From: Streptomyces sp. NBC_01445
Lineage (GTDB): Bacteria; Actinomycetota; Actinomycetes; Streptomycetales; Streptomycetaceae
NCBI RefSeq assembly: GCF_035918235.1
Contig: NZ_CP109486.1
Coordinates: forward strand, 930,001-994,000
DNA: 64,000 nucleotides
Reading direction: 5' to 3'
The notes under the pieces were generated by a model that was given only the letters and a program-made list of their open reading frames with translations, was not told the DNA's origin and made no database searches. The position numbers and the translations under genes were made by a program. Below are positions 5,565-55,733 of the stretch, piece after piece. Position 1 is the first letter of the stretch. Every line of letters begins with the position of its first letter.

Positions 5565-5586
5565 CGGATCACCAGACGGAGCCCCC

Positions 5587-11954: not shown

Positions 11955-11973
11955 GGTGGTCACTTCCTTCGGC

Positions 11974-28596: not shown

Positions 28597-28632
28597 GGTC
28601 TTCTCCGTAACTACAGGAACTGCAGGGCTGCT

Positions 28633-29916
28633 TCAGGGCTGCTCGGGGCTGGACGCGGATCTGCGGATCACGACGGAGGCATTGATGCCGCCGAAGGCGA
28701 AGCTGTTGCTGAGGGCGGTGCGCAGCGGCCGTCGCTCGGCCGTGCGGCCGGCCAGTGGCAGGCCCGCGGCGGGGTGTTCGAGGTTCGGGTTGGGGTGGAC
28801 GGCCCCGGCCCGCAGCTGTGCGATCGCCGCCACGGCCTCGACGAGCCCCGCGGCGGTGAGGCAGTGGCCGGTGAGCGGCTTGGTGGAGTTCACGCGGTAC
28901 GTCGTGCGGTCGCCGAACACCTTGTGCAGCGAGGCCGCCTCGGTCTCGTCGCCGAGCACGGAGCCGGTGCCGTGGGCGTTGACGTAGTCGATCTCGTCGG
29001 GCGTGATGCCGGCCGTCGCGAGGGCCGCGCGCATGGCGGCGGCCTGCCCCTCGGCGTCGGGTTCGGTGCCGCGCCGCGCGTCGAGGCGCTGCCCGTGCCC
29101 GGTGATCTCGGCGAGCACGTCGGCGCCGCGCTCCCGGGCCGCGCCGACCGGCTCCAGGATGACGGCCGCCGCCGCCTCACCGCGGACGAATCCCTGGCGG
29201 TCGCGGTCGAACGGGCGGCACATCCGGGCGGGTTCGTCCCTGAAGCGCTCGTGGGCCATGGCGCCGGTACGGCGGAAGGACTCGGCCTCCACGGGCGACA
29301 GTTCGGCGGCCGGGGCGACGACGAGCACGCGCTCGGCCCAGCCGGCGGCGATGGTGCGGACGGCCTGCACGAGCGCGAGCGTGCCGCTGGCGGAGGCGCC
29401 GCCCAGCGTCCAGCCCTCGCCGTGGATCCCGGTCAGCTCGCTGACCGTGCCGACCACGTCCACGTCGAGGTGGGTGAGCGCGTACGAGGCGCGCAGCCGA
29501 CCGGGGCTGCGGGCATGGCCGAGGACGGTCCCGGCCTGGTGGGCCAGGGCGAGGTTGCTTCCGGCGACGATCAGGGCGGTGCCGTCGGCGAGCTGGTCCC
29601 GGGTCAGCCCGCTGTCGCGGACAGCGCGCAGCGCGACGCACGCGGCGGTGCGCGCGGGCAGCGCGGCGCGGCCCGCGACCTTGCGCAGCCGTGCCGCCGT
29701 CGCGGGATCGTGCGCCAGGTGCCGCCCGGCCCAGTCGGCGAGGGCGAACCCGTCGAGCGCGGCGACGGGCAGGCTCTCGCCGTCGTCGTCCGCCGCCGGC
29801 AGGGTCACCGCGCTGCGGCCGGCGAGCAGCGCGGCGGTGAAGCCGTCGAGGTCGTCGGCGAGCGGGGTGAGCACCGAGGCGGCCGTGACGGCCACGGCGC
29901 CGGATATGTGACTCAC
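28633..29916 (-). CDS. Decarboxylating ketosynthase of beta-branching cassette
   Basis: 427 residues, FabF-like fold. The usual active-site Cys is Ser in 'LGGASASGTLALVQAV' (about residue 173), the substitution that marks KS homologues decarboxylating malonyl-ACP to acetyl-ACP in HMG cassettes. Histidines are retained in 'YVNAHGTGS' and 'STKPLTGHCLTAAG'. It charges the donor ACP, whose gene overlaps its start (ATGA). It is distinct from the type II KS pair at the left edge by motif, location and the Cys-to-Ser change. Confidence 0.88.
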   Translation of the reverse strand: MSHISGAVAVTAASVLTPLADDLDGFTAALLAGRSAVTLPAADDDGESLPVAALDGFALADWAGRHLAHDPATAARLRKVAGRAALPARTAACVALRAVRDSGLTRDQLADGTALIVAGSNLALAHQAGTVLGHARSPGRLRASYALTHLDVDVVGTVSELTGIHGEGWTLGGASASGTLALVQAVRTIAAGWAERVLVVAPAAELSPVEAESFRRTGAMAHERFRDEPARMCRPFDRDRQGFVRGEAAAAVILEPVGAARERGADVLAEITGHGQRLDARRGTEPDAEGQAAAMRAALATAGITPDEIDYVNAHGTGSVLGDETEAASLHKVFGDRTTYRVNSTKPLTGHCLTAAGLVEAVAAIAQLRAGAVHPNPNLEHPAAGLPLAGRTAERRPLRTALSNSFAFGGINASVVIRRSASSPEQP

Positions 29917-30164
29917 GCGTGCGCGCTCGCGTGCTCGCGGAACACCGCGACCAGGGACCGCAGATCGTTGGCCTTGGTCAGCTCCGCGTTGGGCACCTTG
30001 ATGCCCAGTTCGTCCTGGGCGGCGATCACGACGTCCATGCGGTCGATGGAGTTGGCGCCGAGGTCGCGCATGCTGTGGTCGAGGGTGATCTCGATGTCGG
30101 CGACCTCGGGCAGGACGTCGACGATCTGGGCGCGGATGACGGCGAAGATCGCTTCGTCGGTCAT
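29913..30164 (-). CDS. Donor acyl carrier protein of beta-branching cassette
   Basis: 83 residues. Carrier site 'DLGANSIDRMDVV' with Ser39; GxNSxDR is the typical form of donor ACPs in HMG-synthase cassettes and differs from G(V/L/I)DS in the PKS-embedded ACPs. It holds malonyl and then acetyl for HMG synthase. The stop overlaps the KS start by ATGA; GAGG precedes the ATG at 30164. It follows PKS2 after 54 bp, in which two copies of 'ctcgggagtgcggggtg' occur (about 30184-30218). Confidence 0.9.
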   Translation of the reverse strand: MTDEAIFAVIRAQIVDVLPEVADIEITLDHSMRDLGANSIDRMDVVIAAQDELGIKVPNAELTKANDLRSLVAVFREHASAHA

Positions 30165-30218: not shown

Positions 30219-37363
<7,145 letters not shown>

Positions 37364-37367
<4 letters not shown>

Positions 37368-40300
37368 CGATCGTCTCCGAGTCGGAACGCGCGCCGCAGC
37401 TCACGGCGGGAGGGTCGGACGGGTGCGGTGGCCGTGGCCGCGACGGGGCCCGTCGGGGAGGGGGCGAGGCGTTCGGCGAGGAGGCCCGCGATGTCGTCGA
37501 CGGTGGGCCGGGCGAACAGGTCGGCGAGCTCGATGCCGGTGTCCGGGTAGGCGTCGTCGAGCCGTGCGAAGAGCCGCCCGAGGAGCAGGGAGTTCCCGCC
37601 GATGTCGAAGAACCTCCGGTCGCTCGGGACGTCGTCGATCTCCAGCAACTCGCCCCACAGGGCGAGGACTTCGCGCCGCAGGTCCGCCGTGCTCGCGGCC
37701 GCTGCGCCGGGGCGTTCGGTGTGCCCGTGCGCCTGCGGGTCCGTCCGGGCCCCCGGCTGGGGCAGGGCGCCCTGCGCGGCCAGCCGTACGGCTTCCTTGC
37801 GGTCGACCTTGCCGTTGGGCGTCAGGGGCAGTCCCTCCGCCGCCACAAGGCGGTCGGGGAGCATCCACGGCGGCAGCGTCGACGAGGCGAAGTCGCGCAG
37901 TTCGCCGAGGCTCGGCAGACTGTCGCCGGTCCGGGGCACGGCGATCACGAGGAGCCTGGCCGAGGGGCCTTCGCCGTGTACGGCGAGGACGGCGCGGGCG
38001 AGCGCGGGGTGCGCGCCCAGCACAGCCTCGATCTCGCCCAGTTCGACCCGGTGGCCGCGGATCTTGACCTGGCTGTCGGCCCTGCCGAGGAAGAGCAGCC
38101 GCCCTTCCTCGTCGCGGCGCACCAGGTCGCCGGTGCGGAACCAGCGTCCGCCGCCGACCGCGCGGACCGGGTGACCGGTGAAGCGCTCGGCGGTCAGGTC
38201 GGGGCGCTGCCAGTAGCCGTGGGCGACACCCGCCCCGCCGATCCACAGTTCGCCCGGCTCCCCCGGTGCGGGGGGACGGTGGCCGTCGACCTCGGTGAGG
38301 ACCAGCTCCGTCGCGCCGATCGGCTCGCCCAGGTGCACCGGCCCCGTGTGCGTGACGCGCGCGATGGTGGACCAGATGGTCGCCTCGGTGGGGCCGTAGA
38401 CGTTCCAGAGGCTGCCGGTGCGTTCGACGAGGGCGGTGGCGAGGTTGCCCGGCAGGGCCTCGCCGCCGCACAGCGCGGTCAGTCCGGGCGCCCCGCTCCA
38501 GCCGCCGTCGACGAGCAGTTGCCAGCCGGCCGGGGTGGCCTGCATGGCGGTGATCCTGCGGGTGTCGAGCAGACGGGCCATGCGCCGGGCGTCGACGACG
38601 TCCGAGCGTTCGGCGACGACGACGGTGCCGCCGACGAGGAGCGGCAGGAACAGCTCCAGGACCGAGATGTCGAAGCAGACGGTGGTGACGGCGAGGAGCC
38701 TGCCGGGCGCCCGCTCGTCGATGCCGACCCTCGCCGCGATGGCGTCCAGGGTGTGGACGACGTTGCCGTGCGTGACGCCGACGCCCTTCGGCTTGCCCGT
38801 ACTGCCGGAGGTGAACATCAGGTACGCGAGGTCGGTGGGCGCGGCGGAAGTGCCCGGCGTGCCCGAGGCCGCGGCGGTGTCGGCCCGGATGTCCCGCGGG
38901 TCGACGATCCGCAGTCGCTGCGGCAGCAGCCAGGTCAGGTCCCGGTCGGCGAGGGCGACCTCGCAGCCGGCGCCCTCGACGACCATCGCGAGGCGCTCGC
39001 TCGGGTAGGAGTCGTCCAGCGGTACGTACGGGCGGCCGCTCTTGAGGATGCCGAGGAGTACGGCGGGCAGCCGCGCGGAGCGGTGCATGAGCACGGCGAC
39101 GGGCTCGCCCGGCGCGGCGGTGGCGTCGACCCGGCGCGCGACGGCGTCGGAGAGTGCGTCGAGTTCGGCGTAGGTGAGGGTCTCGTGGTGGTCCTCGACG
39201 GCGGTCGCGTCCGGGCAGCGCCGGGCGCTGGCGGCGAAGCGCGCCACGAGGGTGCCGGCGGCCGGGTCGAGCAGGTCACCGACGGCTGAGCGGGTGTTGC
39301 GCGCCAGTTCGACGGTGGTGCGGCGCAGGTCGTCGACGAAGCGGTCCACGGCGGCGCCGTCGAGGACGGCGGTGCGGTGGTTGGCGAGGACCTCGACGCC
39401 CTCGGGGGTGTCGGTGACCTCGAGGCCGAGGTCGAAGTGGCCGCGCTGGCCGCGCCGGTGCACCGGCTCCCATCCGTCGTCGGCCGCCTCGGTGCCGCGC
39501 TCCCAGTTCTGGTAGGCGAGGGTGACGGTCGGCACGCCGTCGTCGCCGTGCGCGGCGCGGCACAGCGCGGCGAACCGCGGGTAGGGCAGCGCGGCGTGCC
39601 CCAGGGCTTCGCGCACGGCCTGGCCGAGGTCCTGAAGCCAGGTGGCGAGCGGGAGTCCGGGGTCGAGGTCGACGCGCAGCGGCACGGTGTTGACGAAGCA
39701 GCCGACGGTGGCCTCGTCGTCGTCGGAGCCGCGCCCGTACGTGGGTACGGCCATCAGCATCGAGCGGTGCCCTGTGGCCCGCGCGAGGGCCACGGCGAAC
39801 GCGCCGAGCAGCGCGGTGAACCGGGGCACTCCGGCGGCGCGTGCGATGTCGCCGAGCGCGTCGGACAGGCTGCCGGGCAGACCGTACTCGCGGTGGGCAC
39901 CGGCCGCGCCGGCCCCCTCTCCGCCCCCGGGGAAGAGCACGCCCGCGGGCGTGCCGTCGGCGAGCCGCGTACTCCAGTGCTGTTCGGCGTCGGCCCACTC
40001 GGCGGCCGTGGCGGTGTCGCGTTCGCGGCGCAGTGCCCCGGCGAACGAGCCGGCCTCGGGGAGGTCGGCCGGTCCGCCGCGGGTGAGCGCCGTGTACAGG
40101 GCGGCGACGTCACGGCGCAGCAGGTCTGCCGAGCGGCCGTCCACGACGATGTGATGGGTGGTCAGCTGCAGGACGGGGCGGTCCCCGGCGACCTCCCAGA
40201 GAACGGCCCGCAGCAGGGGTTCGGACGAGGTCCGCAGCCGGCGGTCGGCCTCCTCGGTGACGGCACGCTCCAGGGAGTCCTCGTCGACGATCCGGGTGAC

Positions 40301-43300
40301 GAGCGCGGGCGTGTCCCGGGCGGGCACGAAGGCGGGGTTCCCGTTGTGGGTGCGCACCGAGCACCCCAGCACGGGATGGCGCCGCACCAGTTCGGCGACG
40401 GCGCCACGCACGGCCTCGCGGTCCGCGCCCGCGGGCAGCCGCCAGGACAGCGAGATGTTGTACGGGGCGTGCGGCGCGGCCGACTGGTCCGCGGCCCACA
40501 TGCCGAGGAGGCGATCGGGCAGAGCCGCCGGAAACGTGTCGGGAACGGCAGGGGCGGGGGCGGGTTCGGCGGAGGCGGGTTCGGCGGCGGCACCGGTCCC
40601 GGCGGCCGGAGCGAACCCGGCCGCCTCGACGGCGGCCTTCAACTGGGCCCCGCGCGCGTCGAGCAGACGCTCCGTCAGATCTTGTAGGCCGGTGCTGTCC
40701 AGGAGCAGGGACAGTGGCACCCGGCCGAGGTCGTCCTCCAGGATCCGGCACAGGCGCATCAGGGCGATGGAGTCGACTCCGTAGTCGGAAAGGGGTGTCC
40801 CGGGGTCGAGTTCGTCGGCGCTCCTGCCCACGGTGTGCGCGACCCGCCCGGTGATCCAGCGCAGCGCGGCCCGCGCGAGCCCGTCCGCGGGCGGCACGGT
40901 GACGGGCGCCCCTGAAGACACCGGCTCCCGCGCGGCAGGCGCCTCGACGGTTCGGGCGGGGACGTCAGGCGCGTCGTGGCGGACCTCAAGGGCCCGGTCC
41001 CACACGTCGAAGTCGCCCGCCACCAGTGCCGCGTACGGCGTCGGGGCGTCCTTCGCCGGGTCGAGCAGCGGCCACACGGAGCGCAGGGCGGTGCGGGTGG
41101 CGACCGGGCGCAGGCCGTACGTACCGGCCAGGTAGGTCAGTGTGTCCGGCTCCGGAGCCATGCCCGCGTCCGCGAGGACCGGCCAGCCGACGGACAGGGT
41201 GCGGCCCGGCCGCCCCGACGCCGTGCGGCAGGCGGCGAAGCCGTCGAGAAACCCGTTGGCGAAGGCGTAGTCCGACTGGCCCTGGTTGCCCACCAGTGCC
41301 GCGAGGGACGAGGCCAGGACGAAGAAGTCCAGCGGATGTCCGGCGAGCGCCGCGTCTAGGCGGAGCGCGCCGAGGACCTTCGCGCGGCACACCTCCTGCA
41401 CCGCCTCGGGTGTCTTGCCGCGCAGGAATCCGTCGCGCAGCACCCCCGCGGTGTGGACGACACCGCGAAGCCGTACGCCCTCCCGCTCCAGCCACCGCAC
41501 CAGCTCGGCGACATCGCCCGCATCGGAGACGTCGCAGCGCCGGTAGGTGACCGAACCGGTCCGGCGCAGGTCCTCCAGCGCCGCCTCGTCCGGTTCCGAA
41601 CGCCCCACCAGCACCAGCCGTGCCCCCGGCGCGCGCGCCAGGACATCGGCGGCGACATGCCGGCCGAGCCCGCCGAGCCCGCCGGTGACCAGGTAGGTCC
41701 CCCGGGGGTCGAGCACGGTGCCCGCCGTGTCCGTGGCAGCCGTGTCTGTGGCTGCGAGGGGAGTGAGCACCGACACCCGGCGCCCCCGCGGGCCCAGCCG
41801 CACCCAGTCGACGCCGTCGGCGGCGCGCATCGCCTCGGCCACCAGGGCCTCGGCTTCAGCGTCGTCGGGGTGGTCGCCACCGTGGACGTCGAGGGTGGCC
41901 AGACGCAGCGCGAAGCGGCCGGTCTCGCCGGCGACGGTCCGCGCCAGGCTGTGCAGCCCGTGCACCAGCGGCGCGACGTCGCCGTTCTCCTCGGCCCGGG
42001 TCACCAGCAGGATCCGGGCCCCGTCCAGGGCCCGGCTGCGGACGAACGCCCGCAGCAGTCCGAACACGGTGGCCAGTGCACCGCTCGCGAACCTCGACCA
42101 CTGCGAAGTAACGCCGTCCTGGGTCAGCGGGGCGCGGCCGAGTCCGTCCGCGGCCGGGCCCCGGGTGAGGTCGACGAGGACCACGCCCGGTGTCCCGGTG
42201 CGTTCGGCCGTGGCCGCGAGGACCTGCTCGTCGCCGGCCTCCCCCGACGTCAGGGTGGCGGCGGCCTGTGCGCCCCACCGGGGCACCGCGTCCCCGATGA
42301 CCCACAGCGGCCCCTGCGGGCCGGCGTGTGCGTCGTCGCCGATCGGGGCCGGCCGCCAGTCGAGGCGGTATCCGGCCACCGGTACGCCGTCCGCCGCGCC
42401 GTCGCTCGTGTCCGTGGTCGCCGGCCGCGGCGTGGTCGGCTGCGGCCCGGCGTCGACGCGGATGCGGAAGCCCGCCACGTCGACGAGCACGTCGCCGCTG
42501 TCCGTATCGATGATGTTCAGGTCGAAGACATGGATCCCGGCCGCGTCGTCGCGGCGTACCCGCCGGGCGTGCACATAGGCGCGGCCGGTGGCGGGCTGAT
42601 GGACCGTCAGCCTGTCCACGGCCAGCGGCCGCAGGGTGCGCCGGGTCCCGGTCTCCTCGGTGAGGAGCAGATACGCGGCACTCTGGCAGGCCCCGTCGAA
42701 CAGCGCCGGGTGCAGCACGTGGCGCCCGTCCGGGTCCTCGCCTTCGGCGAGCCGCAGCTCGGCGGTGACCTCGTCGCCGTGGACGGCGGCGCGCCGCACG
42801 GTGCGGTACAGCGGCCCGTACGCGAAGCCGTGCGCCGCGAAGGACCGGTAGAAGTCCTCCTGGTCGCCGTCGCCCAGGTGGGTGTCGAGGTCCGCGGTCC
42901 GGTAGACCAGGACCGGCCGCACCGGGCCCGCCGCCTCGGGTCCGGGCGCGGGCTCGGCCCAGCCCTGGGCGACGACGGCGTCCGCGACGGACGTGGAAAA
43001 GCGCCGTGCGCCCCGTGCGTCGGGCTCCTCGAGGACGGTGGTGACCGTCATCGGCAGTCCGGTGGCCGGCTGCGGCCAGACCAGGTCGCGCAGCACGGTG
43101 CGGTACGGGTTCCCGCCCGCGCCGAGCAGTGCCTCGTGCACCAGCTCGGGGTGGAACGCCCCGGGCAGCACAAGCTCACCGTCCACTACGTGGTCGGCGA
43201 CCCAGCGCGACGCGCCGCCCAGGCGCGCGGTCACGGTCCGGGAGGCGGGCAGGGTCACCGTGTCGGCCAGCGGCATCGGGGACGAGGAGGTCTCGGGCAG

Positions 43301-46300
43301 GGCGCAGCGCACCCGGGCGAGCGGCGTGCCCGGCAGCGGCACGCGCCGTCCGGCGGCCGGGCCTGTGTACGTGCCGTCGGTGACCCAGGCGCGGGCGGCC
43401 GCGTCGGCCTCGGGCGGCGCCGGGTCCGTCACGAGGGCCGGGTGGGAGGTCCCCTCGGCCAGCGCGTGCAGCGCGGCGCGCAGTTCGGCCTGGTCGTGGG
43501 CGGTCACGGCGGCCCGGTGCGGCCCGTGGTCCCGGCCCGTGTGCAGGGTGTGGGCGATGTCGGCGAGGGCGAGTCCTTCGACGGCGCCGGCGAGCGCGCG
43601 GGCCGTGCCGGCCAGTCGGTCGGCGTCCGGCGCCGCGACCGGTATCAGTACGGGGCCGAAGGGCTGTGGCGTCGCCGGTCCCGCGTCGTACTCCTCCAGG
43701 ACGACATGGGCGTTGGCGCCGCCCGCGCCGAAGGAGCTGACGGCCGCGCAGCGCGGGACTCCCGTGCCGTCCCAGGGCTCGGCGGCGGTCTGGATGCGCA
43801 GCGCGGTGCCGTCGAGGCCGAGCTTCGGGTTGGGCCGCTCGGCGTGCAGGGTCGGCACGAAGCGCGCGCGCCGCAGCTGGAGGATGGCCTTGGTGAGTCC
43901 GGCGATACCGGCGGCGGCCTCGGCATGGCCGATGTTGGACTTGACCGAGCCGACGCGCAGCGGGCCGTCGGCGCCCGCCTCCTCGAAGGCCAGGGCCAGG
44001 GCGCGCAGTTCGATGGGGTCGCCGAGTTCGGTGCCGGTGCCGTGCGCCTCGAGATAGCCGACGGCGGCCGGGGAGACCCCGGCGTGGCGCAGCGTGGCGC
44101 CGATGAGGGCGGCCTGGGCGCGCGGGTTGGGAACGGTGTAACCGCCGCTGCCGCCACCGTGGTTGAGGCCGGTGCCGCGGATCACCGCGTGGATCGTGTC
44201 GCCGTCCGCCTCGGCCCGGTCCAGGCGCTTGAGGACGACGGCGCCCGCGCCCTCACCGGGCACGAAGCCGTCGCCGCCCGCGCCGAAGGCCCGGGTGTGC
44301 TCGCCGCGCGAGGGCATGCCGAGCGCGCACAGGCCGGTGAACCGGTCGGGGTGCAGGTAGAGGTTGACGCCTCCGGCGAGTGCCAGGTCGGCGTCGTCGT
44401 TCTCCAGGGCCCGGCAGGCCAGGTGCAGGGCGGTCAGCGACGACGAGCACATCGTGTCGACCGTGAGGCTCGGGCCGCTGAGGTCGAAGACGTGCGACAC
44501 CCGGTTGGCGACGGACGCGGCGGCCGTGACGGCGTACTCGGGGTTGTCGGCGCCCGCGGCACGGGCGTCGCGCTGGGCGAGCAGATGGCTGTTGGCGGTG
44601 ACACCGGCGAACACCCCGACGCGCGGGCCGCCCTGGGTGCCCGCGAGGGTGCGCCGGGAGTAACCGGCGTTCTCGAAGGCTTCCTTGGCGATCTCCAGGA
44701 ACAGCCGCTCCTGCGGGTCCATCAGGGCCGCGTCGCGCGGGGTGATGCGGAACATCGCGGGGTCGAACGCGTCGATCCCGTCGACGAAGCAGCCCCAGCG
44801 GGCGTAGCCGCCGCCCGTGGTGCGCGCGGTGCGCCAGTCCCAGCGCTCGGCGGGCACCTCGCGTACGGGGGTGTGCCCGGCGTTCAGCAACTCCCAGAAG
44901 GCGGCGATGTCCTGGGCGCCGGGATAGCGCCCGGCGATCCCGACGACGGCGACGGCGGGTGCGCCGGTGTCGCGGCCGCGGCGCGCGGGGACGGGCGCCG
45001 CCTCGGCGGCCCGCGGCTGCGCGACGGGGCGTACGGCCGGCTCGCTCCGCAGGGGTGCGGGCCGGGGGGACGTGGTGGGTGCGGGCGCGGCGGGACGGGC
45101 CGGTGCGAGATGGCGCGCGAGCGCCCTCGGGGTCGGGTGCTCGAAGAGCAGGGTCGCCGCGACGCTGCGCTCGGGGAACATGCTGCGCAGCCGCTCGCAG
45201 AACTCCTCGTTGAGGAGCGAGTCCACGCCGAGGGAGGGGAAGTCGGTGTCCGCATCGAGCAGTGCGGGGTCCCGGACGGTGAGTTCGCCGACGAGCCGCA
45301 GGACGCGCTCCAGGAAGGAGGCGTCCTCCTCGACGGCGGGCGACGGCTGGGCGACGGGGGCGGCCGGTGCGGTCGATGCGGCGGCGGGCGGCGGCGCCGC
45401 CCCACGTTCGGCCAGCATCTGGGCCAGCTGGTCGACGGTCCGGTGCTCGAACAGCGCGGTCGCGGCGACCGGTCCGTACCTGCGGGACACCGCCTCGACG
45501 AGCTCCATGTTGAGCAGCGAGTCCACGCCCAGCTCCTGCCAGGGCAGATAGCCGGGCACATCGGCGTCGGAGCCGCCGAGCAGGTCGCGCACGATGGCGC
45601 GCAGCCCCTCGGCGATCTCCGGGACCGTGGCACCGGCCGCTGCCGGGTCATCGCCGGCAGGAGCAGTGGCGGCGGGCGGCCGGCAGGTCAGCAGGGCCAC
45701 GCATCCCGGCGCGTCGCGCAGATGGTCCACCTCGGCGAGGCTCCAGCCGTGCTCCTCCAGCAGGGATCGCCAGCGGGGCACGTCGAGGAGGGGGCCGTGG
45801 GGCAGGCGCCGGTCCGTGTCGACATAGCCCCACCAGCCGTCCGTCAGACCGAAGGTGAGGGTGTAGACCGCGGCCGGGACGACCATCTCGACCAGCAGCA
45901 ACCGGCCGCCGGGGGCGAGAAGTTGCTCGATGTGGGCGAGGGTGCGGGACAGGTCGCGGGTCGCGTGGATCACGTTGCTCGCCACGACGAGGTCGACGGC
46001 GCCGGGTGCGAAGCCCTGGGCCTCGGGACTCTTCTCGATGTCGAGCAGGCGCGGTCGCACGCGGTCGCCGAAGCGGCGGCGCCCGTGCTGGAGGAAGGCC
46101 GGGGAGACGTCGGTGTACGCGTAGTCGGCGACGCGCACACCGCGGGCGTCGAGCGCGGCCAGCGCCGACGCGGTGGTGCCGCCGACGCCCGCGCCGATCT
46201 CCAGGACACGCGGCGCGGCAAGCGCGGCGGCGGCGTCGCCGAGGGCCGCGGCAGCGGCGGAGTTGACCGGGTCGAAGAGCTGGTTGCCGCTGTAGACGGC

Positions 46301-49300
46301 GGTGACGCCGCTCAGGTCGCCGCCGGGGAAAAGGACGGCGGTGACGGGCAGTTCGCCGCGCAGGACGGGACCGTACGACTCCAGGGTCCGGTCGAGCAGC
46401 GTCAGGTGCCCGGCGAGGTCGGGGTGGTCGGCCAGCAGCGTGTCGCGGGTGCGGACCAGTTCGGCCCCCGCGGGCACGGACAGTCCGGACTCGGCGTACT
46501 GCGCCAGGAGTTCGAGGATCGCGGCGATCAGCCTGCGGTGCCCGGGTACGGCTGCGAGCAGTCCGGCCGCCGCCTCCGTGTCGACGTCGGGCCGGGCGGC
46601 GAGCGCGGGAGGCAGGCCGAGTTCGGTCATCCGGTGGGCGAGTGCGGCACGGGCGTAGCGATCCAGCCGGTGCGCGGCGTCCTGCCCCTGCGGGGCCGGG
46701 TGGTCGGGTGCCGGGCGCGCGGTGAGCGGGCGCAGCGGCTCGGGATCACCGCCGAGCACGAGGGACTGCGGTCGGTTGCCGGACATGCCCGCTTCCAAGG
46801 CGGCCACTCCCCTTTCCGGTACGAATGCGATGATCCCGGGATATTCACGCTTGACGTGCGCGGTGTACCGGCGGGCGAGCCCGGTGCCGTGCCACAGCCC
46901 CCAGTCGAAGGTGCGCACGGCGAGGTGCGCGTCCCCGTCGACGGCGGTGGCGTAGTGGTCGAGGAACGCGTTGGCGGCGGCGTAGTTGAGGCCGCCGACG
47001 CTGCCGAAGAGTCCGGCGGCGGAGGAGAACAGGACGAGCGCGGCGGGCCGGCCGTCCGGGCGGGTGCGCAGGGCGCGGCGCAGCGCCAGGACCACGGTCA
47101 CCTTGGTCGCGAGGACCTGGTCGAGGTCGGCCGGGGTGAGTTCGGCGAGGCGGGCCGGGCTGATCGAGCCGACGCTGTGCACGATGCCGTCCGGTTCACC
47201 GAACGCGGCCCGGCATGCGGCCAGGGTGCGCTCCACGGCGGCCGGTTCGGTGACGTCGGTGCTCAGGTACCGGGCGGTCCCGCCGAGGGCCGCGAGGTCG
47301 TCGAGCAGGGCGCGGGTGCGGTCGTCGGCGGCCGAGCGCCCGACGAGCAGCAGCCGGGCGCCGTAACGCCGTGCGAGGTGGCGGGCCACCTCGGCGCCGA
47401 TGCCTCCTGATCCGCCGAACAGGACGTAGGTCCCGCCGTCGGTGAACGCGTCGCCGGTGGCGGCGGGGGCGGGCTCGGGGCGGTCCGTGTAGACCTGACG
47501 CAGGCGCCGCGTGCCGCGCAGGGCGATGAGCGGTACGGCCTGGGCGCAGGGTTCGTTCAGGGCCGCGGCGACCTGGGCGGGTGTGGCGGCGGCGTCGAGG
47601 TCGACGGCTGCGGCGCTGACGCCCTCGATCTCCCGGGGCAACGTGCGGACGGCGCCGAGCAGGGCGCCCTGGAGCGACGCGCCGGGCGAGGGGGCGCCGC
47701 CGTCCGGGTCGGTGAGGCCGGTCGTGACGAGGGTGAGGCGGGCGGGACGGCCGGCCGCTTCGAGGGTACGGGCCACGGTCAGCAGGGCCGCGAGCCATTC
47801 GCGCAGCCGGCGGATCCCGGCCGTGTCCTCGCTCCACCCGGAGCCGTCCACGAGAAGAGCCACGTGGCGGGCCCCCCGCACCTCCTGTGCGAGGTCGGGA
47901 GAGTCGCGCCGCACGGTCCGGGCGCCGAGGCCTTCGGCGCGGTGGGGATCGGCCGCATCGTGGACGAGCACGAGCCCGTCGAGCCGCGCGGTGTCCGGCC
48001 GGGTGGTCACGGAGGGCTCCGCGCACCACTCGGGCACGAGCACACGGACGGCGGGCGCGTCGGCGGGCGCCTTCTCGGGCGCGACGTCGCCGCCCGCGGC
48101 GGGCGCCGAGGGGACGACCGTCCCGATGGCGTGCAGCCGCAGGCCCGTGACACGCAGTACGGTCCTGCCCTCGGCCTCCGCGGCCAGGTCCACGACGGTG
48201 TACGTGGCGCCCTGCGCGGTGCGGCGGACCGTCAGTTCCGCCGTGTCCGGGACCACGCCGGACCATTGGACGTGGTCGGCGGCCGCCGCGACGCGGGAAG
48301 CGGAGCCGTCCATCAGGACGCACGAGGTCTGCAGCGCCGCGTCCAGCCATGCCACGCGCCGGGTGCGCGGGTCGGTGGCGGCGGGGGCGACGATCCGGGC
48401 GACGGCCTGCCCGTCGCGTCGGCGCACGTCGTGCACCACGCGGTAGACCGGCCCGACCTCGATCCCGTTGCGCTGGAGGAAGGCGCCGAGATCGACGGCC
48501 TGCTCCGGGCTGCCCGGTTCCGCGACGCCCGTGGCCGGCACCGGTGCCGGAGGGTCGGTCGCCGGGACGGCGCGGGCGACGACCACACCCTCGCGCTCGA
48601 CGGCGAGACGCACGGTGCCGTCCGTCTCCTCGGCGCTGCGCACCAGACGCACGGAGCCGCCTTCGGGCACGGGTACGGGCCGCTGGAACCGCAGTTGCCC
48701 GAGCGCGACGGGTCCGCCGTCGGCGAGCGCGTCGATCAGTGCGGCTCCGGGCAAGGTGGTCCGCCCGCCGACGCGGTGCTCGGCCAGCGGATGGCCGTCC
48801 TCGATGACGTAACCGCTCCCGCGCCCGGAGAACGCAGAGGACACAGAGGACGCAGAGAACACAGAGGACTCGGCGGCCGCGGCGCCCGGCAGCCAGTAGG
48901 AGTGACGTTCGAAGGGGTACGGCACCAGCGGTACGCGGCGCGGGCGGGGTCCCTCGGGCAGGCGCGAGGCCCAGTCCCCGACCGTGGTGTCGGCTCCGCC
49001 GAGCCAGTCGCGCAGCCAGGGGTCAGCAGGCTGTTCCTGCGTGCCGTGGTCGGCGAACTGCCTTGCCAAGCGGGCGAGTTCGGCCAGGTCGGCGACGACG
49101 AAAAGGGCGCGGTGCGGCAGGTGACGGCGGCCGGACTGGAGCGTCCAGGCGATCTCGTCCAGGGCGGGCGAGGCGGGCGAGGCGGCCAGCTCGGCCGTGC
49201 GGGCGGCCAGCCGGGTCAGCGAACCGGGTGTCGCGGCCGACAGCGGCACGGCGAACGGCCCGTCACCGGCGGCGTGTTCGCGGGGCAGGTCCGGTGCCTC

Positions 49301-52204
49301 CTCCAGGACCACATGGGCGTTGCTGCCGCCGAACCCGAACGCGCTGACGGCCGCGCGGCGGGGCGCGCCGCCGGTGCCCGCGGGCCACGGCACGGGCTGC
49401 GCGGCGACCCGGACCGGGGTCCCGTCCAGTTCGATGTGCGGGTTGAGACGGGTGAAGCCGGGCGTGCCCGGTATCAGCCCGTGGCGCAGGACCTGCACCG
49501 CCTTGACGACGCCGACCAGGCCCGAAGCTCCTTCCAGATGGCCGATGTTGGCCTTGGCGGAGCCGACCCAGATCCGGCCCTCGGGCCCTGCGGCGCGCGC
49601 GGGCATGCCCTGCGGCTCCGCGTCGAGGACCTCCCGGAAGGCATCCAGCTCGATCGGATCGCCGAGCGGCGTGCCGGTGCCGTGCGCCTCGAGGAACCCG
49701 AGGTCGGCGGCGCGCAGTCCGGCCCGGCCGAGCGCCGTGCGGATCAGCCCGCTCTGGGCACGGGGGTTGGGCGCGGTCAGCGCGGCGGCCCGGCCGCCGT
49801 GGTTGACGGCGCTGCCGCGGATGACGGCGAGTACGGGGTCGCCGTCCGCGACGGCGCGGCGCAGTGACTTGAGTACGAGCCAGCCCGCGCCCTCGCCCCG
49901 GACGAACCCGTCGGCGTCCGCGTCGAAGATCCGGCTGCCGCCCTCGGGCGAGAGCATGCCCGCCCTGCGGTAGGCGCGGGCGTTGAATCCGTTGCTGAGG
50001 AGGTTGGCGGCTCCGGCGAGGGCGACCTCGCACTCGCCGGAGCGCACCGCGGCCTGGGCGAGGGCGAGCGCGGTGAGCGCGCCGGAGCAGGCGGTGTCGA
50101 CGGTGATGCTGGGCCCGGTGAAGTCGTACAGGTGGGAGACGCGGTTGGCCAGGAACGCGGGGAACGTGCCGGTGGTGGCGTACCCGTCGGCCGAGGCGGC
50201 GCGTTCCACGAGTTGCTCGCGGTAGTCGTAGCTGCAGGCGGCGGCGTACACCCCGACGGGCGTGCCCGCGAGGGTGTCGGGGGCGAGTCCGGCGTGTTCC
50301 AGAGCGTGCCAGCTGAGTTCGAGCAGGGCGCGCTGCTGAGGATCCATGGAGGCGGCCTGACGGGGTGTCACTTCGAAGAAGGGCGCGTCGAACAGGTCGA
50401 TGCGGTCGAGGAGCCCGGCGCGGAACCCGGCAGGCACCTCCCCCGCGAGCCGTCCGGCCGCCACCGCCTCGATCCGGCACTCCCCCTGACTCAGCAGCTG
50501 CCAGAAGGCCTCGGCGTCGTCCGCCCCCGGCACCTTGCAGGACATGCCGATGACAGCGACGTCGTCGTACCCGCCGGGCCGTGCGTCCGTGGCCCCGGCG
50601 GGTACGAGGGCGGGCGCGGCCCCTTCGGCGGGTGCCGCCCCTTCGTCCTCCGGTTGTCCGGGCAGCAGCGCCGCCAGCTCCGTCAGCGTCGGGTGGCGCC
50701 AGACTGCGGTCGCCGGCAGCTGCACGCCGAAGGCGGCACGGGTCTCGCGGATCAGGCGCAGCGCACGGGCGGAGTCAAGACCCTGCTCACCGAGCGGGCG
50801 GACGGGGTCCGCCCGATGCCCGAGGACGTCGGACGCCAAGGCGACGAGCCGCTCCAGCGCGTCGGGAGCCGACCGCGGGGTGTCCACCACCGGGCCGGTC
50901 GTGGCGGCGACGGCAGGCTCGGCGCCCGCCGCGCGCCGCCCTGCCGCCTCGGTCTCTGTCTCGGTCTCGGTCTCTGTCTCGGTCTCTGTCTCGGTCTCTA
51001 TCTCGGTCTCTATCTCGGTCTCTATCTCCAGGGATTGCCGCACAGCGTCCAGGTAGACGGACGCGTCCCGCCCGTTGAGCACCGTGTGGTCGAAGGCGAG
51101 CACCATCCTGCGCACCGCGCCCCGGCCCGTGCCCTCGACCGCGCCGAGGAACAGGGTCGCCACCGCCGGCGGCACGACCACCGGCACCGCCAGCGTCGGT
51201 CCCCCGTCCCCCAGGTGGGAGAGCATCAGCGTGACCCGGCCGTCGGCCTGCGACTGCCCGTCGAGTGCCTCTTCCACGGCCTGCGCGTACCGCTCGTCGA
51301 AGTCCTCGGCCGTGACCTCGTCGGCGCCGCGCACCACCGCGACGGTGAGGTCTCCGTCGTCGGTGGCCACGGCGATCCCGAGGTCCACGTGCTCGTACAC
51401 GCGCAGCGCGCTCTCGTCGAGCCGCCGCGAGCGCAGCCGTGCCGCGTCGGGCGCCGCCGCGCAGCGGGCCGCGACCCGGGCAAAGGCCTGGAAGACGGTC
51501 GAGAAGCGGGCGCCGCGGTGTTCCCGCAGGGCCCGCTGCAGCGTGTCCTCGGCGACGAGGGCGGAGACGACCGCGGGAACGACCTGGTCGCGGGCGCCGA
51601 GCATGGCCCGGTTCAGGGCGCGCTGCCGGATCGACTGGGTGACGTCGGTGAAGCCGGTGACCGGCGCCGACGGGCCGCGAGCACCGGGTGGGCCGACCGT
51701 ACCGACCTCCGCGCCGGCGTCCGCGCCGCTCTCCCGCTGCCGGGCCACGTACCGTTGCAGATCGGCGGGCATCAGGCTCGTGCCCGCCGCGGGAACGTCC
51801 GGCAGCAGTGCCTCGTCGATGCCGAGGCGCCGGGCGTGGGCGCGGGTGCGGGGCGGAATGCGGCGGGTCGGGGTGAACTCCCGGCCGGGTGCGCCCTGCA
51901 CGGACGCGCCGGACGCGCGCTCGGCGGCCGCGGTCCGCGGTCCGGTCCCGGCCTTCTCCCGGTCCGGGACGATCCGGCCGACGGCGCCGCCGATCGCAAC
52001 GGTGTCCCCCGCCCGGACCAGCCAGGCGTCCAGGATCCCGGCCACCGGGGACTCGATCTCGACGGCCGCCTTGTCGTGCTCCATCTCGTAGACGACCTCG
52101 TCCTTGGCGACCGCGTCGCCCGGTTGCTTGAGGAACCGGACGATGCGGACCTCGACGATCCCCTCGCCGAGGCGCGGAACGGACAGCACCGACTCCGTGG
52201 TCAT
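37364..52204 (-). CDS. Loading PKS/NRPS: lipoyl-PSBD-E2-ACP, KS-DH-KR-MT-ACP-ACP, KS-DH-KR-ACP, C-A(Gly)-PCP
   Basis: 4946 residues. The N-terminus is a 2-oxoacid dehydrogenase E2: lipoyl domain (Lys45 in 'EMEHDKAAVEI'), E1/E3-binding domain (~108-150), acyltransferase core (~180-390) with 'AFDHTVLNGRDAS' where HxxxDG is usual. An (ET)n repeat linker follows, then ACP1 (~475). Module 1: KS (Cys ~705), DH (HRVGGRTTLP ~1138; WLDAALQ ~1287), KR (~1590; Tyr ~1740), C-MT (LEIGAGVGGTT ~2000), ACPs (~2225, ~2325). Module 2: KS (TMCSSS ~2585), DH (HVVDGELVLP ~3002), KR (~3500), ACP (~3808). Then C (HHIVVDG ~4016), A (~4317-4800, code read by hand as DILQLGLIWK, glycine) and PCP (~4870). It would build isobutyryl + C-methylated ketide + enoyl unit amidated with glycine, as in virginiamycin M. 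ATG 52204 has GGAGGAATCTCG upstream. No AT is present. Confidence 0.93.
50949..51028 (+). repeat. Hexanucleotide tandem repeat encoding (Glu-Thr/Ile)n linker
   Basis: TCGGTC / TCTGTC / TCTATC hexamers repeat for 80 bp. On the coding strand they give an ETETETE...IETEIE linker joining the E2 acyltransferase core to the first ACP of PKS1. The 5' (right) copies contain ATA codons, rare in high-GC actinomycetes, consistent with slippage. Confidence 0.85.
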
Positions 52205-52276
52205 CGAGATTCCTCCGTGGATACTCCGACCTTCAGGGGGGAGCGGAAACGGACTCCTGCGGAGCAGGGCAGCGAG

Positions 52277-52305
52277 CGGGTATTCGCCCTGTGGGCGGAT
52301 ACCCG
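52277..52305. promoter_or_regulatory. 29-bp palindrome upstream of PKS1
   Basis: CGGGTAT-T-CGCCC, loop TGT, GGGCG-G-ATACCCG: 13-bp arms broken only by one T/G pair (which can wobble in RNA). It lies 73 bp before the PKS1 ATG. It may be an operator for a dimeric regulator (TetR-like) or a stable leader hairpin. No T-tract follows on the minus strand, so a simple terminator is unlikely. Confidence 0.5.
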
Positions 52306-52371
52306 TCCCACGCACCGTCCGCGACTTGTATGCTCGGCCTTGCCCGGCTGGCGATAACCAAGCTGGCCGGG

Positions 52372-52533
52372 TCTACCGCCGGGCTGGCGGGATGTCAGGT
52401 CTGTGGAGCTGGCGTAAGACTGCTGGGCGTACCAACGTCCCTCGCCGTTCATTCGGGGCAGCGGCTGTCGATGAAGCAGAAAGTCCACTCCGCGAGGAAT
52501 GAATCCCCCTGCTTCAGCTGGGGGAGATGTCAA
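52372..52533 (+). mobile_element. Probable IS200/IS605-family (TnpB) right-end remnant with omega-RNA-like 3' end
   Basis: In the frame starting at 52291, translation reads STAGLAGCQVCGAGVRL (from ~52372) and later MKQK (52471), resembling the C-terminal tail of actinobacterial TnpB proteins (…AAGLA..CGAGVR…MKQE…). It is followed by GAATCCCCCTGCTTCAGCT and GGGGGAGATGTCAA (52501-52533), a hairpin (arms 52504-52509 and 52520-52525) that matches the conserved right end of such elements as I remember it. No TnpB catalytic part, TnpA or left end remains here. The hairpin sits 31 bp beyond the E1 stop and could now act as its terminator. Called from pattern memory; no alignment was run. Confidence 0.5.
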
Positions 52534-52555
52534 CTGCGCTTCCTTCTCCATGCGG

Positions 52556-54595
52556 TCAGGCCAGAACGGAACGGACGGCCGCGACCACGTCGTCCGCGGC
52601 GGGCAGCACAGCGCGCTCCAGGTCGGGGTGGAACGGGACGTGCACGTCCTCGCGGCTCACCAGGCGCGGCGGGGCGAGCAGCGAGTAGAACTCGTCGTCG
52701 GACGAGAGGAGTTCGGTGATCAGTCCGGCGCCGAAGCTGCTCGTACGGTTGTCCTCCTGCACCACGACCAGGCGCCCGGTGCGGCGCACGGAGGCGGCGA
52801 CGGTCTTCCGGTCGAGCGGCACCAGCCAGCGCAGGTCGATGACGTCGGCCGCGACGCCGTCGGCCGCGAGGCTCCCGGCGGCGTCGAGGGCGAGTTCGGT
52901 CCCGTTGCCCCAGCTGACGACGGTGACGTCGTCGCCAGTACGCAGGGTGCGGGCGCCGAGCGCGGGTGCGGGCCGCCCAGCCGGCTCCCGGCGCTGCCGC
53001 ATCAGGTGCTTGGGCAGCAGGATCAGCGTCGGATCGGGTGCGGTGAACGACTCCAGGAAGGCGGCCTCGGTGTCCTCGGGGGTGGAGGGGACGACGACGC
53101 GCAGTCCGGGCAGGTGGGTGAACAGGCTCTCGTTGCTCTGGCTGTGCCAGATTCCGCCGCCCGGCAGATAGCCGCCCCAGGGTGCGTAGATGACGACGGG
53201 GCACTGCCATGCGGAGACCGTGCGCCAGCGCAGTGTGGTGAGCTGGGCGGCGAGCTGGTTGAAGGCGGGGCCGGCGAAGTCGATGAACTGGAGCTCCACG
53301 ACGGGCCGCATGCCGGCGGCGGCGAGCCCCACGGCGGCGCCGACGATGGTGGCCTCGGCGAGCGGCGCGTTGGTCATGCGCTCGCCCGCAACCTTGCCGA
53401 GCCCCTTGGTGAAGCCGAAGACGCCGCCCTTGGGATCGTCGATGTCCTCGCCGAACAGGACGAGTTCGGGGTGGCGTTCCAGGCCGGTCGCCAGGGCCCG
53501 GTTGACGGCGGACACCATCGTTCCGCCGCACGGCTCGGTGAGCGGTCCGGCGGCCGGTTCCTGTCCGGCGGGGTGCGCCGTCTCGCTCGCCGGCGCGAAC
53601 AGATGCTCCATGATCAGCTTCGGATCCGCGGCCGGCTCGGCGGCGACCCGCGCGAAGACCGCTTCGACCTCGTCGGCTTGCCGGGCCCGCGTGCGCTCCA
53701 GCCATGCCTCGTCGACGGCGCCCTCCGCGAGCAGCCGTGCGGTGAAGATCTCCACCGGGTCGCGCAGGGTGGCGAGGTCCTCGCTGCTGCGGTAGACGCG
53801 GTGGTCGTCGGAGGACGTGTGCGGGTCGAGCCGGTCGAGGTGGCACCACAGCACGACGGGCCCCTCGCCGCCCCGCACGGCGCTCAGCGCTTCGCGGGAG
53901 GCGGCGTGCAGGGCGTCGGGATCGGCGCCGTCGACCACGGTCGTGCGCTCCTGGGGCAGCAGGCCGAGCGCGTGCGGAGACATGTGCTCGGTCGGCGTGG
54001 AGATCCCGTAGCCGTTGTCGGAGACGAGGAAGACGACGGGCAGCCGCCGCTCCACCGCGAAGGCGACCGCCTCGAAGAACTCGCCCTGCCGGGTGGAGGC
54101 GTCGCCGATGGAGCAGACGACCGCTTGTTCACGGCCCATCAACTGGGCGGCCCAGGCGGCTCCCACGGCGGGCAGGCACTGGCTTCCGGTCGGGCTCGCG
54201 ATCGAGAAGACATTTCCCGAACGGTGGCCGAAGTGGGCGCTCATATTGCGCCCCGCCGAATGCGATCCGGCCTTGGCCATCAGATCGCGTGCCTGACCCT
54301 CGGTATTCATTCCGCGGGCCATGAGAACAGTGCGGTCGCGGTAGTGGGGAAAGATCAGATCCTGCGGATCCAACAGCTCACAGAGGGCGGCCAGACCCTC
54401 GTGACCTGCGGAGGAAATATGGAACCAGGCCTCGCCCTGACGAAGCACGATGCCCGATCTGCGGTCGCATTCCCGCGAGAGCAGCATCAGTTCGAGGAAG
54501 TCAGCCCGCCGCTGCGCGGGTATCCCCGATGGCCGGGATTCCTTCGTCCGATTCTTCACAGTCAAATCGTGCCGTGTCGCCCGGGTCCCGAGCAT
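52556..54595 (-). CDS. Fused E1alpha-E1beta 2-oxoacid (branched-chain) dehydrogenase
   Basis: About 679 residues. The alpha half has 'FHISSAGHEGLAALCELL', 'FPHYRDRTVLMARG' and the thiamine-diphosphate motif starting GDASTRQGEFFEAV (~163) and ending 'VSDNGYGIS'. The beta half (~358 on) has 'MVSAVNRALATGLERHPEL', 'LFGEDIDDPKGGVFGFTKGL' and the C-terminal transketolase domain 'ALGARTLRTGDDVTVVSWG'. Separate alpha and beta genes are usual in branched-chain dehydrogenases; fusion occurs in some bacteria. It would decarboxylate 2-oxoisovalerate and pass isobutyryl to the lipoyl domain of PKS1. Start is uncertain: ATG 54595 (MLGTRATRHDL) lacks a clear ribosome site; an in-frame ATG at 54703 lies in a GC-rich palindrome and is less likely. 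No E3 (dihydrolipoamide dehydrogenase) is in the window. Confidence 0.85.
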   Translation of the reverse strand: MLGTRATRHDLTVKNRTKESRPSGIPAQRRADFLELMLLSRECDRRSGIVLRQGEAWFHISSAGHEGLAALCELLDPQDLIFPHYRDRTVLMARGMNTEGQARDLMAKAGSHSAGRNMSAHFGHRSGNVFSIASPTGSQCLPAVGAAWAAQLMGREQAVVCSIGDASTRQGEFFEAVAFAVERRLPVVFLVSDNGYGISTPTEHMSPHALGLLPQERTTVVDGADPDALHAASREALSAVRGGEGPVVLWCHLDRLDPHTSSDDHRVYRSSEDLATLRDPVEIFTARLLAEGAVDEAWLERTRARQADEVEAVFARVAAEPAADPKLIMEHLFAPASETAHPAGQEPAAGPLTEPCGGTMVSAVNRALATGLERHPELVLFGEDIDDPKGGVFGFTKGLGKVAGERMTNAPLAEATIVGAAVGLAAAGMRPVVELQFIDFAGPAFNQLAAQLTTLRWRTVSAWQCPVVIYAPWGGYLPGGGIWHSQSNESLFTHLPGLRVVVPSTPEDTEAAFLESFTAPDPTLILLPKHLMRQRREPAGRPAPALGARTLRTGDDVTVVSWGNGTELALDAAGSLAADGVAADVIDLRWLVPLDRKTVAASVRRTGRLVVVQEDNRTSSFGAGLITELLSSDDEFYSLLAPPRLVSREDVHVPFHPDLERAVLPAADDVVAAVRSVLA

Positions 54596-54677
54596 CGCCC
54601 CCAATAGCCAATTCGTGGAGGGGTGTTGATACCTCGTAGGAGTGAGTCCCGGGAATTCGGCTACGGAAAAATAGTGA

Positions 54678-54701
54678 GCCCTCCCTCCCGGGAGGGAGGG
54701 C
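54678..54701 (-). terminator. Perfect 24-bp palindrome, probable terminator of the third SARP gene
   Basis: GCCCTCCCTCCC meets GGGAGGGAGGGC with no spacer, followed on the minus strand by TCACTATTTTTCC, a short T-tract. It lies ~95 bp after the SARP stop and ~83 bp before the E1 ATG. A second CGGGAGGGAGGG copy (54705-54716) can pair with the same pyrimidine arm, so two mutually exclusive hairpins are possible. The plus strand of 54690-54719 has six GGG runs and could form a G-quadruplex. Confidence 0.6.
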
Positions 54702-54796
54702 ATCCGGGAGGGAGGGGGGCATGGCCCGCGCCCGCGGAGCCGGTCGGCTCACCCGCAGGACGAGGGGGTGTCCGACGGTGCGGCCGCGTTCTCGGG

Positions 54797-55594
54797 TCAG
54801 GCGGGGACGGCGGAGGCGAGGGGCTCGGGGTGCGCCATGAGGATGGACCGCTGGAGCCTGCCGAGGGCCGTCGACGGCTCGAGGCCCAACTCCCGTACGA
54901 GGGTGGCGCGCAGTCGCTGGTAGACGTTCAGGGCCTCCCCGCGACGCCCCGAGCGGTGCAGCGCGAGCATGAACTGGCCGTGCAGGCTCTCGTGCATCGG
55001 GTACTGGTTGACCAGCACGGTCAGTTCGGACAGCAGCTCGCGGTGCCGGCCGAGCCGCAGGTCCGCCTCGATGCGCTGGTCGAGGGCGCACAGACGGGTC
55101 TCCTGGAGCCGCCTGACCTCGAGGGTGATCTGGCTGCCGGCCTGGACGTCGGCGAGCGCGGATCCGGTCCACAGTGACAGCGCGTCGCGCAGCCGCTTGG
55201 CGGCACCCGCGTAGTCCTCGGCGTCCATGGCCCGGTACCCGGCGCCCGCGCGGCGTTCCAGTTCCTGGAAGTCGAGGGTGCCGCCGCGGGTCTCGAGGCG
55301 GTAGCCGCCCGGCAGCGTGACCAGGATGTCCTTGGCGGTCGCCTGCTCGTCCCCGCCCCGGTCCAGCGCCTCCCCGATCAGCTCGCGCAGTTGCAGGATG
55401 TAGGTCTGCAGCGTGGTGCGGGCGCTGCGGGGTGGCGTCTCGTCCCACAACTCCTCTATCAGCGTGCACACCGGTACGACGTGGTCCGCGTTCAGCGCGA
55501 GCAGCGCCAGGACCTGGCGGGGCTTGGGTGCGGTCGGCGCGATCGAGATGCCGTGCTCTCGCACCGACAACGGGCCCAGTACTTCGATGTCCAT
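54797..55594 (-). CDS. SARP-family transcriptional activator (third of three)
   Basis: 265 residues. Winged helix: 'IEVLGPLSVREHGISIAPT', 'PKPRQVLALLALNADHVVP', 'RTTLQTYILQLRELIG'; BTAD domain to 'LVRELGLEPSTALGRLQRSIL'. Strongly similar across its length to the SARP at 4.0-4.9 kb (shared 'PRQxLALLAL', 'TTLQTYILQLR', 'YRxAxxLxxGxALVDV/ALADV'), suggesting paralogues. ATG 55594 has AGGGGAGAAACG upstream. Its leader region (55595-55680) contains an inverted repeat. It lies between the pap genes and E1 on the same strand, separated from papM by a bidirectional terminator, so it has its own promoter. Likely activates streptogramin genes; the target is unknown. Confidence 0.9.
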   Translation of the reverse strand: MDIEVLGPLSVREHGISIAPTAPKPRQVLALLALNADHVVPVCTLIEELWDETPPRSARTTLQTYILQLRELIGEALDRGGDEQATAKDILVTLPGGYRLETRGGTLDFQELERRAGAGYRAMDAEDYAGAAKRLRDALSLWTGSALADVQAGSQITLEVRRLQETRLCALDQRIEADLRLGRHRELLSELTVLVNQYPMHESLHGQFMLALHRSGRRGEALNVYQRLRATLVRELGLEPSTALGRLQRSILMAHPEPLASAVPA

Positions 55595-55645
55595 CGTTTC
55601 TCCCCTGTGGGTGCAAGCTGGTCGGCGCATGCAGGGTCCAGCTCC

Positions 55646-55664
55646 GGCACGGGATGAGCGTGCC
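55646..55664. promoter_or_regulatory. Inverted repeat in the leader of the third SARP gene
   Basis: GGCACG (55646-55651), 7-nt spacer, CGTGCC (55659-55664); located 52 bp before the ATG. Could be an operator or a 5'-UTR hairpin. Too short to interpret further. Confidence 0.25.
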
Positions 55665-55682
55665 GCGGCATCTGAACCCACC

Positions 55683-55733
55683 ACAAATAAAAAAACAGCA
55701 CGGTCGGTTTGTCAATCCGAACCGTGTAGTCTT
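55683..55733 (-). terminator. Intrinsic terminator after papM (potentially bidirectional)
   Basis: Arms CACGGT (55699-55704) and ACCGTG (55721-55726), extended with imperfect inner pairs, are followed on the minus strand by CTGTTTTTTTATTTG (seven T) and on the plus strand by TAGTCTTTTTTCTC. It starts ~44 bp after the papM stop. Intrinsic terminators with real T-tracts are uncommon in such high-GC DNA, so this is a strong transcription boundary between the pap genes and the SARP gene. Confidence 0.75.

Follow-up and report, generated by a model that had tools for sequence, protein, structure and literature searches.

The window analysed here is a stretch of 64,000 nucleotides from Streptomyces sp. 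NBC_01445, corresponding to positions 930001-994000 of contig C2 in a genome of 11.47 Mb on two contigs. Our subject is a polyketide synthase (PKS) whose first protein, PKS1, opens with lipoyl and acyltransferase (E2) domains of the 2-oxoacid dehydrogenase family fused to an acyl carrier protein (ACP), and the E1alpha-beta gene that lies beside it. All features of this assembly line lie on the minus strand, and their order of transcription is SARP-type regulator, E1alpha-beta, PKS1, PKS2, beta-methylation cassette, PKS3, nonribosomal peptide synthetase (NRPS) 4, malonyl acyltransferase and phosphopantetheinyl transferase.

PKS1, a PKS/NRPS protein (37364-52204), starts at the ATG at 52204, although the same frame is open as far as a GTG at 52315. 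Its domains are arranged as lipoyl-E2-ACP, ketosynthase (KS)-ketoreductase (KR)-methyltransferase-ACP-ACP, KS-dehydratase-KR-ACP and condensation-adenylation-peptidyl carrier protein. Within the first 516 residues, to which the N-terminal Pfam coordinates refer, we located a lipoyl domain (residues 7-76, 51977-52186; Biotin_lipoyl, 3.6e-14), a putative peripheral subunit-binding (E1-binding) segment (residues ~116-156, 51737-51859), the E2 acyltransferase catalytic core (residues 197-393, 51026-51616; 2-oxoacid_dh, 2.1e-16) and the loading ACP (residues 451-514, 50663-50854; PP-binding, 1.7e-10). The first KS follows (approximate bounds 49325-50566), with the active-site motif DTACSG, and is the expected acceptor of the starter. 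The initial annotation had read the front of PKS1 as a lipoyl domain and an E2 core joined to an ACP, and this was confirmed in an alignment (A3) of 11 of the 16 loci collected (the window, L013-L020, L022 and L023), since the three Pfam families each matched all 11 members. Invariant across the alignment were D44, K45, A46, H373, N377 and S478, which include the predicted lipoylation site Lys45 (52070-52072, in the motif EHDKA), the catalytic His373 (51086-51088), Asn377 (51074-51076) and the phosphopantetheine attachment site Ser478 (50771-50773). Pfam detected no loading acyltransferase or ligase domain ahead of the ACP in PKS1, and no further loading domain before the first KS. The alignments also delimit a Glu-Thr-rich low-complexity linker between the E2 core and the ACP (50855-51022), which varies in length and letters even among strains that are 97% identical.

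Upstream of PKS1 lies an ORF of 715 aa (52556-54703) coding for a thiamine-diphosphate (ThDP) 2-oxoacid dehydrogenase, whose probable start is either the GTG at 54559, which is the start annotated in the relative L009, or the ATG at 54595. As initially described, it is a single-chain E1alpha-beta protein: E1_dh (residues 72-361, 5.1e-46), Transket_pyr (396-569, 2.6e-28) and Transketolase_C (584-706, 4.9e-27) all matched in one chain, the E1alpha part falling at ~53621-54490 and the E1beta part at ~52586-53518, so that the ThDP-binding alpha and beta parts are both present. The GC profile at third codon positions fits a real gene. The position of E1 immediately upstream of PKS1, also part of the initial description, was confirmed, although here the two genes are separated by an inserted repeat element of 329 bp (52205-52533, minus strand) that the relatives lack.

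The same pair of E1 and E2-ACP-PKS genes was found at 15 further loci (L009-L023) in six actinobacterial genera. In all 15 the end of the E1 gene either runs into the PKS start or is separated from the PKS match by no more than about 30 nt, and in 14 of them E1 is a single chain, the remaining one (L021) being a frameshifted draft that matches in pieces. A scan of plasmids with a 635-aa query (E limits for the plasmid searches 1e-5, 1e-50 and 1e-80) matched 681 of 72,556 records somewhere, and four covered at least 80% of the query; these same four plasmids carry E1 (at least 76.6% identity), E2-ACP (at least 57.5%, with at least 80% covered) and an orthologue of KS1, the first KS (at least 72.6%), the next-best E1 and KS1 among the plasmid matches listed being at 37% and 47.6%, respectively. 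A scan of genome contigs yielded at least 16 loci, a lower bound because the scan works through two exact peptide patterns; 11 of these (L013-L023) have the fused E2-ACP-KS, and five (L024-L028) match in the lipoyl/E2 part or the KS only. Not all of these loci represent independent lineages: the window, L009 and L013 hardly differ from one another, L011 and L014 come from two strains of the same species, and G029, which has a 60-mer in common with L022, is apparently that same locus. A more distant relative, G208 (L042, L043, L045 and L046), carries a fused E2-ACP at 36% identity in a collinear PKS/NRPS cluster. A chance fusion or a sequencing artefact was rejected, because the fusion is present in 15 separately sequenced loci and in G208. 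With the E2 query, one of 21 genomes gave a match at 1e-20, that of the strain itself, and with the KS1 query at 1e-150 matches were obtained in two of 81 genomes of the genus and two of 197 of the class, own genome included both times and with part of the candidates scored, suggesting that the cluster is rare.

Taken together, these data point with fair confidence to a starter-loading dehydrogenase built into a streptogramin A trans-acyltransferase PKS, in which, as initially proposed, isobutyryl would pass from the lipoyl arm directly to the loading ACP, bypassing isobutyryl-CoA. E1alpha-beta with ThDP would decarboxylate a branched 2-oxoacid, 2-oxoisovalerate, and reductively acylate the lipoyl arm on Lys45 at the N terminus of the PKS. 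The fused E2 core would then use His373 to move the isobutyryl group from the dihydrolipoyl to the phosphopantetheine on Ser478 of the loading ACP instead of to free CoA, and the first KS would take it up from there. The order of the domains, its recurrence, the invariant residues, dN/dS values under 1 and the parallel divergence of E1, E2 and KS are observed, and from there we infer lipoylation, the substrate, the choice of ACP over CoA and also the source of the dihydrolipoamide dehydrogenase (E3) that would reoxidise the lipoyl arm, presumably encoded elsewhere in the genome. E3-family matches numbered 12 at E values up to 1e-20, two of them over the curated cut-off, and all were on contig C1, with none on contig C2, which carries the window.

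In ordinary complexes, E2 passes the acyl group to the pantetheine thiol of CoA. Direct formation of acyl-ACP is the simplest reading here because the nearest pantetheine is that of the fused ACP and Pfam shows no other loading domain. The fused E2 might instead work as an ordinary E2 that makes isobutyryl-CoA, which would be loaded onto the ACP by another route, the fusion merely keeping the producer near the PKS. Its family membership and retained catalytic His are compatible with this, and PMC9636800 and PMC6963833 give isobutyryl-CoA as the starter, or suggested starter, for virginiamycin M and pristinamycin II. However, the ACP comes directly after the E2 core, and Pfam shows no loading acyltransferase or ligase domain ahead of it in PKS1, although a loading enzyme could be encoded elsewhere in the genome. 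We consider this explanation unlikely.

Several observations weigh against direct loading, and one concerns the substrate. Branched-chain and pyruvate E1 proteins both score with the E1 of this cluster, so that sequence matches do not fix its 2-oxoacid. Pyruvate, 2-oxobutyrate or another branched acid might thus be used in place of 2-oxoisovalerate, giving a starter other than isobutyryl, which would still be compatible with direct transfer. On the other hand, the top PDB match by sequence for both E1 halves is the Thermus thermophilus 2-oxo acid dehydrogenase 1um9, which we take to prefer branched-chain substrates, and the layout of the cluster is that of virginiamycin M/pristinamycin II, for which the starter is described as isobutyryl. 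A different substrate seems to us rather improbable.

A second group of unfavourable points concerns the fused E2 itself. The E1-binding domain of the initial annotation was sustained in part: residues ~116-156 align collinearly with 3duf_I and other E2 chains, but Pfam detected the domain in none of the 11 A3 members (E up to 1), nor in the isolated segment (E up to 10), and the in-register alignment with full-length E2 chains is the sole sign of it. The core is strongly diverged, scoring 62.9 bits against 161.3, 247.5, 255.7 and 259.9 for the other E2 proteins of the genome. With these four additional members of the E2 family encoded in the genome, in open frames of 580, 584, 498 and 1304 aa, acyl-CoA is possibly available anyway, and the supply of isobutyryl-CoA is probably not limiting. 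In G208, the PKS retains its fused E2 even though separate genes for E1alpha, E1beta and E2 are present upstream, with an ABC-F-like gene between. This would mean that the E2-ACP fusion predates the one-chain E1 beside it or that E1 has been exchanged. Finally, the E2 core was less constrained than the KS in all nine of the pairs chosen for dN/dS estimation by NG86. The ranges were 0.12-0.44 (E2 core), 0.12-0.34 (lipoyl domain), 0.06-0.53 (segment following the lipoyl domain), 0.19-0.53 (ACP) and 0.09-0.35 (KS), and all 45 domain estimates were below 1, of which only the sign is usable, as GC content is high and no significance test stands behind them. The weaker constraint on the core speaks for some relaxation, not for loss of function, although a weakened function is conceivable.

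Some of these points also favour a reading in which the fused E2 is a vestige or a mere structural part and the starter comes from the isobutyryl-CoA of a housekeeping branched-chain dehydrogenase: the genome encodes other E2 proteins, the core has diverged and is under weaker constraint than the KS in all nine pairs, and G208 has its separate E1alpha, E1beta and E2 genes. Against such a vestige stand the dN/dS of the core in the nine pairs, the invariance of Lys45, His373 and Ser478 in 11 members from six genera, and the dedicated E1 that adjoins the fused E2 in 15 of 15 relatives, and we regard it as very improbable. Pairwise distances among 15 taxa correlate between E1 and the E2 core (r=0.96) and between E1 and KS (0.95), with a range of 0.94-0.96 over E1, E2 core and KS. 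The three thus diverge in parallel, as expected of jointly inherited parts, although shared ancestry alone could explain part of the correlation, which was calculated with no unlinked control gene.

The active-site motif of the fused core bears on direct loading as well. In E2 acyltransferases, His and Asp of the HxxxDG motif have catalytic roles, and the replacement of the usual Asp by Asn in the fused core is a further point against direct loading. HxxxNG (DHxxxNG) is present in all 16 readable fused cores (the window, L009-L020, L022, L023 and G208), while three of the four other E2 proteins of the genome have DHRxxDG and the 1304-aa one has DHRVIQG, that is, HxxxQG. We considered HxxxNG as a sign of lost activity and dropped this reading, because Gln occupies that position in one of the other E2-family proteins encoded by the genome; by the sequences compared, Asp is not universal in the E2 family and Asn is a mark that the fused cores share. 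E2 cores act as trimers or higher oligomers with the active site between subunits, and PKS ketosynthases are dimers. More speculatively, the fused E2 could represent a class of ACP-specific acyltransferases marked by HxxxNG, and, because of the mismatch between trimer and dimer, the fusion could tie PKS1 chains into a higher-order particle in which E2 trimers cross-link KS dimers, so that the dehydrogenase core would organise the line as well as prime it; we hold this combined proposal as tentative. The HxxxNG that the fused cores share and the trimer/dimer mismatch are testable structural questions. If direct transfer is true, a PKS could be primed from 2-oxoacids without an acyl-CoA pool, an acyl ligase or a loading acyltransferase, E1 and E2-ACP would make a portable loading cassette for assembly-line engineering, and the system would be a clear test case for the choice of a carrier protein over CoA by an E2.

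The remainder of the cluster fits the streptogramin A context proposed initially. The SARP-type regulator (54797-55684) lies upstream of E1. PKS2 (30219-37367), with two KS modules and tandem ACPs in the second, overlaps the PKS1 stop and is followed by the beta-methylation cassette (25833-30164), made up of a donor ACP (29913-30164), a KS (28633-29916), 3-hydroxy-3-methylglutaryl (HMG) synthase (27349-28596) and the enoyl-CoA hydratases ECH1 (26615-27370) and ECH2 (25833-26618). The best PDB matches of ECH1 are 8AHQ/8AHZ, which are VirD of virginiamycin M biosynthesis. The assembly line continues with PKS3 (19798-25785) and NRPS4 (11974-19776), followed by a free-standing malonyl acyltransferase acting in trans (11064-11963; NCBIfam fabD, score over the cut-off) and a phosphopantetheinyl transferase (10210-11061). 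The module order of the trans-acyltransferase PKS/NRPS, the HMG synthase/ECH cassette and the free acyltransferase are streptogramin A features by comparison with published descriptions rather than with Vir or Sna sequences, and the cluster looks like an assembly line of the pristinamycin II/virginiamycin M type. Chorismate mutase, prephenate dehydrogenase, aminodeoxychorismate synthase, a P450 and a cyclodeaminase-like protein are encoded upstream and may be streptogramin B precursor genes, which, judged from protein families, would make the locus a pristinamycin/virginiamycin-like supercluster. In the 70,547 bases read of G208, neither the donor ACP nor the HMG synthase nor the hydratases gave a match at 1e-20, and its cluster is possibly a streptogramin A one that lacks the beta-methyl branch.

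NRPS4 contains a nitroreductase-family domain (14257-14763, residues 1672-1840; Pfam 4.6e-13), which could be responsible for the oxidation that forms the oxazole; according to PMC10006238, the enzyme of this step is not conclusively identified. Between 694 and 10213 the window encodes two FabF-like ketosynthases (694-3863), a luciferase-like monooxygenase (5431-6675) and a flavin reductase (9692-10213). We take the last two to suggest the late oxidation known from compounds of the pristinamycin II type. At ~814-841 kb of contig C2, some 90 kb ahead of the window, there are very long open frames (7541 aa and 5688 aa) that match the ACP-KS portion of the query several times and are probably a second large PKS system.

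The 329-bp element between E1 and PKS1 was not present in any of the 15 relatives compared. The same genome holds two further near-full copies (98%; query 52208-52536), and ~65-93 bp of one element end recur at 12 other places. Because a TnpB-like OrfB_IS605 protein lies near two of five such loci examined (L051 and L052 of L048-L052), the element looks like a non-autonomous one of the IS200/IS605 type. It supplies a ribosome-binding-site-like GGAGGA 5' of the PKS1 ATG, and it plays no part in the loading mechanism.

The initial annotation had treated the priming of a PKS by a built-in E2 as possibly new. We rejected a unique and unreported principle on the basis of three publications: PMC5384830 reports both the proposal and an E2-T-C fusion, PMC6335953 describes a ThDP/lipoyl-E2/ACP set in a quinocarcin-type pathway, and PMC10006238 lists a branched-chain dehydrogenase (BCDH). 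Among the papers listed by the literature searches, none announced a PKS with a built-in E2 in its title or the opening of its abstract. PMC5384830 (eLife, 2017) states that earlier work had already put forward direct priming of a carrier protein in place of CoA, and it cites Craig and Brady (2011) and Brachmann (2012) for N-acyl amides and pristinamycin IIA and Peng (2012) for naphthyridinomycin. The lines closest in plan are those of virginiamycin M and pristinamycin IIA (VirA and SnaE1), which by their descriptions, not their sequences, share a loading part, two PKS modules, one NRPS module and a beta-methylation cassette. As far as the excerpts go, SnaE1 of pristinamycin II uses isobutyryl, two malonyl units and glycine (PMC6963833), and BCDH is among the domains and enzymes in the key to Fig. 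1, the virginiamycin M/pristinamycin scheme (PMC10006238). The latter also numbers the ACP5b Ser of the virginiamycin system 6871. An argument from this numbering that VirA lacks an E2 was dropped as evidence for neither side, because the PKS1 of G208 is also shorter, to a similar length, and yet carries the fused E2.

The pepteridine synthase Plu2796 of Photorhabdus (E2-T-C) is alike, by its description in PMC5384830, in joining a part that resembles the E2 of pyruvate dehydrogenase to a carrier protein and in having a separate E1, but no E3, in its pathway, and an E2 fused to a carrier protein with E1 in the cluster is equally present here. Direct carrier priming was proposed for it as well: the same excerpts state that plu2796 deletion abolishes the product, that a carrier Ser mutant confirms the dependency and that feeding of 2-oxoacids enhances production. 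By that description it differs in being NRPS-like with a C domain and in using pyruvate or 2-oxobutyrate, and it is not a PKS loading module. Quinocarcin QncN-QncL-QncM, naphthyridinomycin NapB-NapD-NapC and scleric acid SclQ1-4 likewise combine a ThDP enzyme, lipoyl and E2 domains and an ACP, and the quinocarcin-type set is described, in the portions consulted, as making and attaching the glycolicacyl unit (PMC6335953; NapB/NapD/NapC homologues, PMC7570522). These systems differ in that their C2 unit comes from a ketose phosphate, their ACP is a free protein and they feed an NRPS. The metagenomic enzyme of Craig and Brady (2011), to judge by the title of that paper, converts branched-chain 2-oxoacids into branched-chain acyl-ACPs, and differs in being tied to N-acyl amino acid formation, according to the accessible part of PMC8762209. 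Canonical Bkd/BCKDH (branched-chain dehydrogenase) complexes share the E1alpha, E1beta and E2 families, the lipoyl Lys and the catalytic His, whereas in the present cluster E1 is one chain, E2 is fused to the ACP-PKS and has HxxxNG, and E3 matches are on contig C1 only. To these systems the present analysis adds the spread of the fusion in actinobacteria, the HxxxNG motif shared by the fused cores, the constant association with E1 and the repeat element inserted in the present strain.

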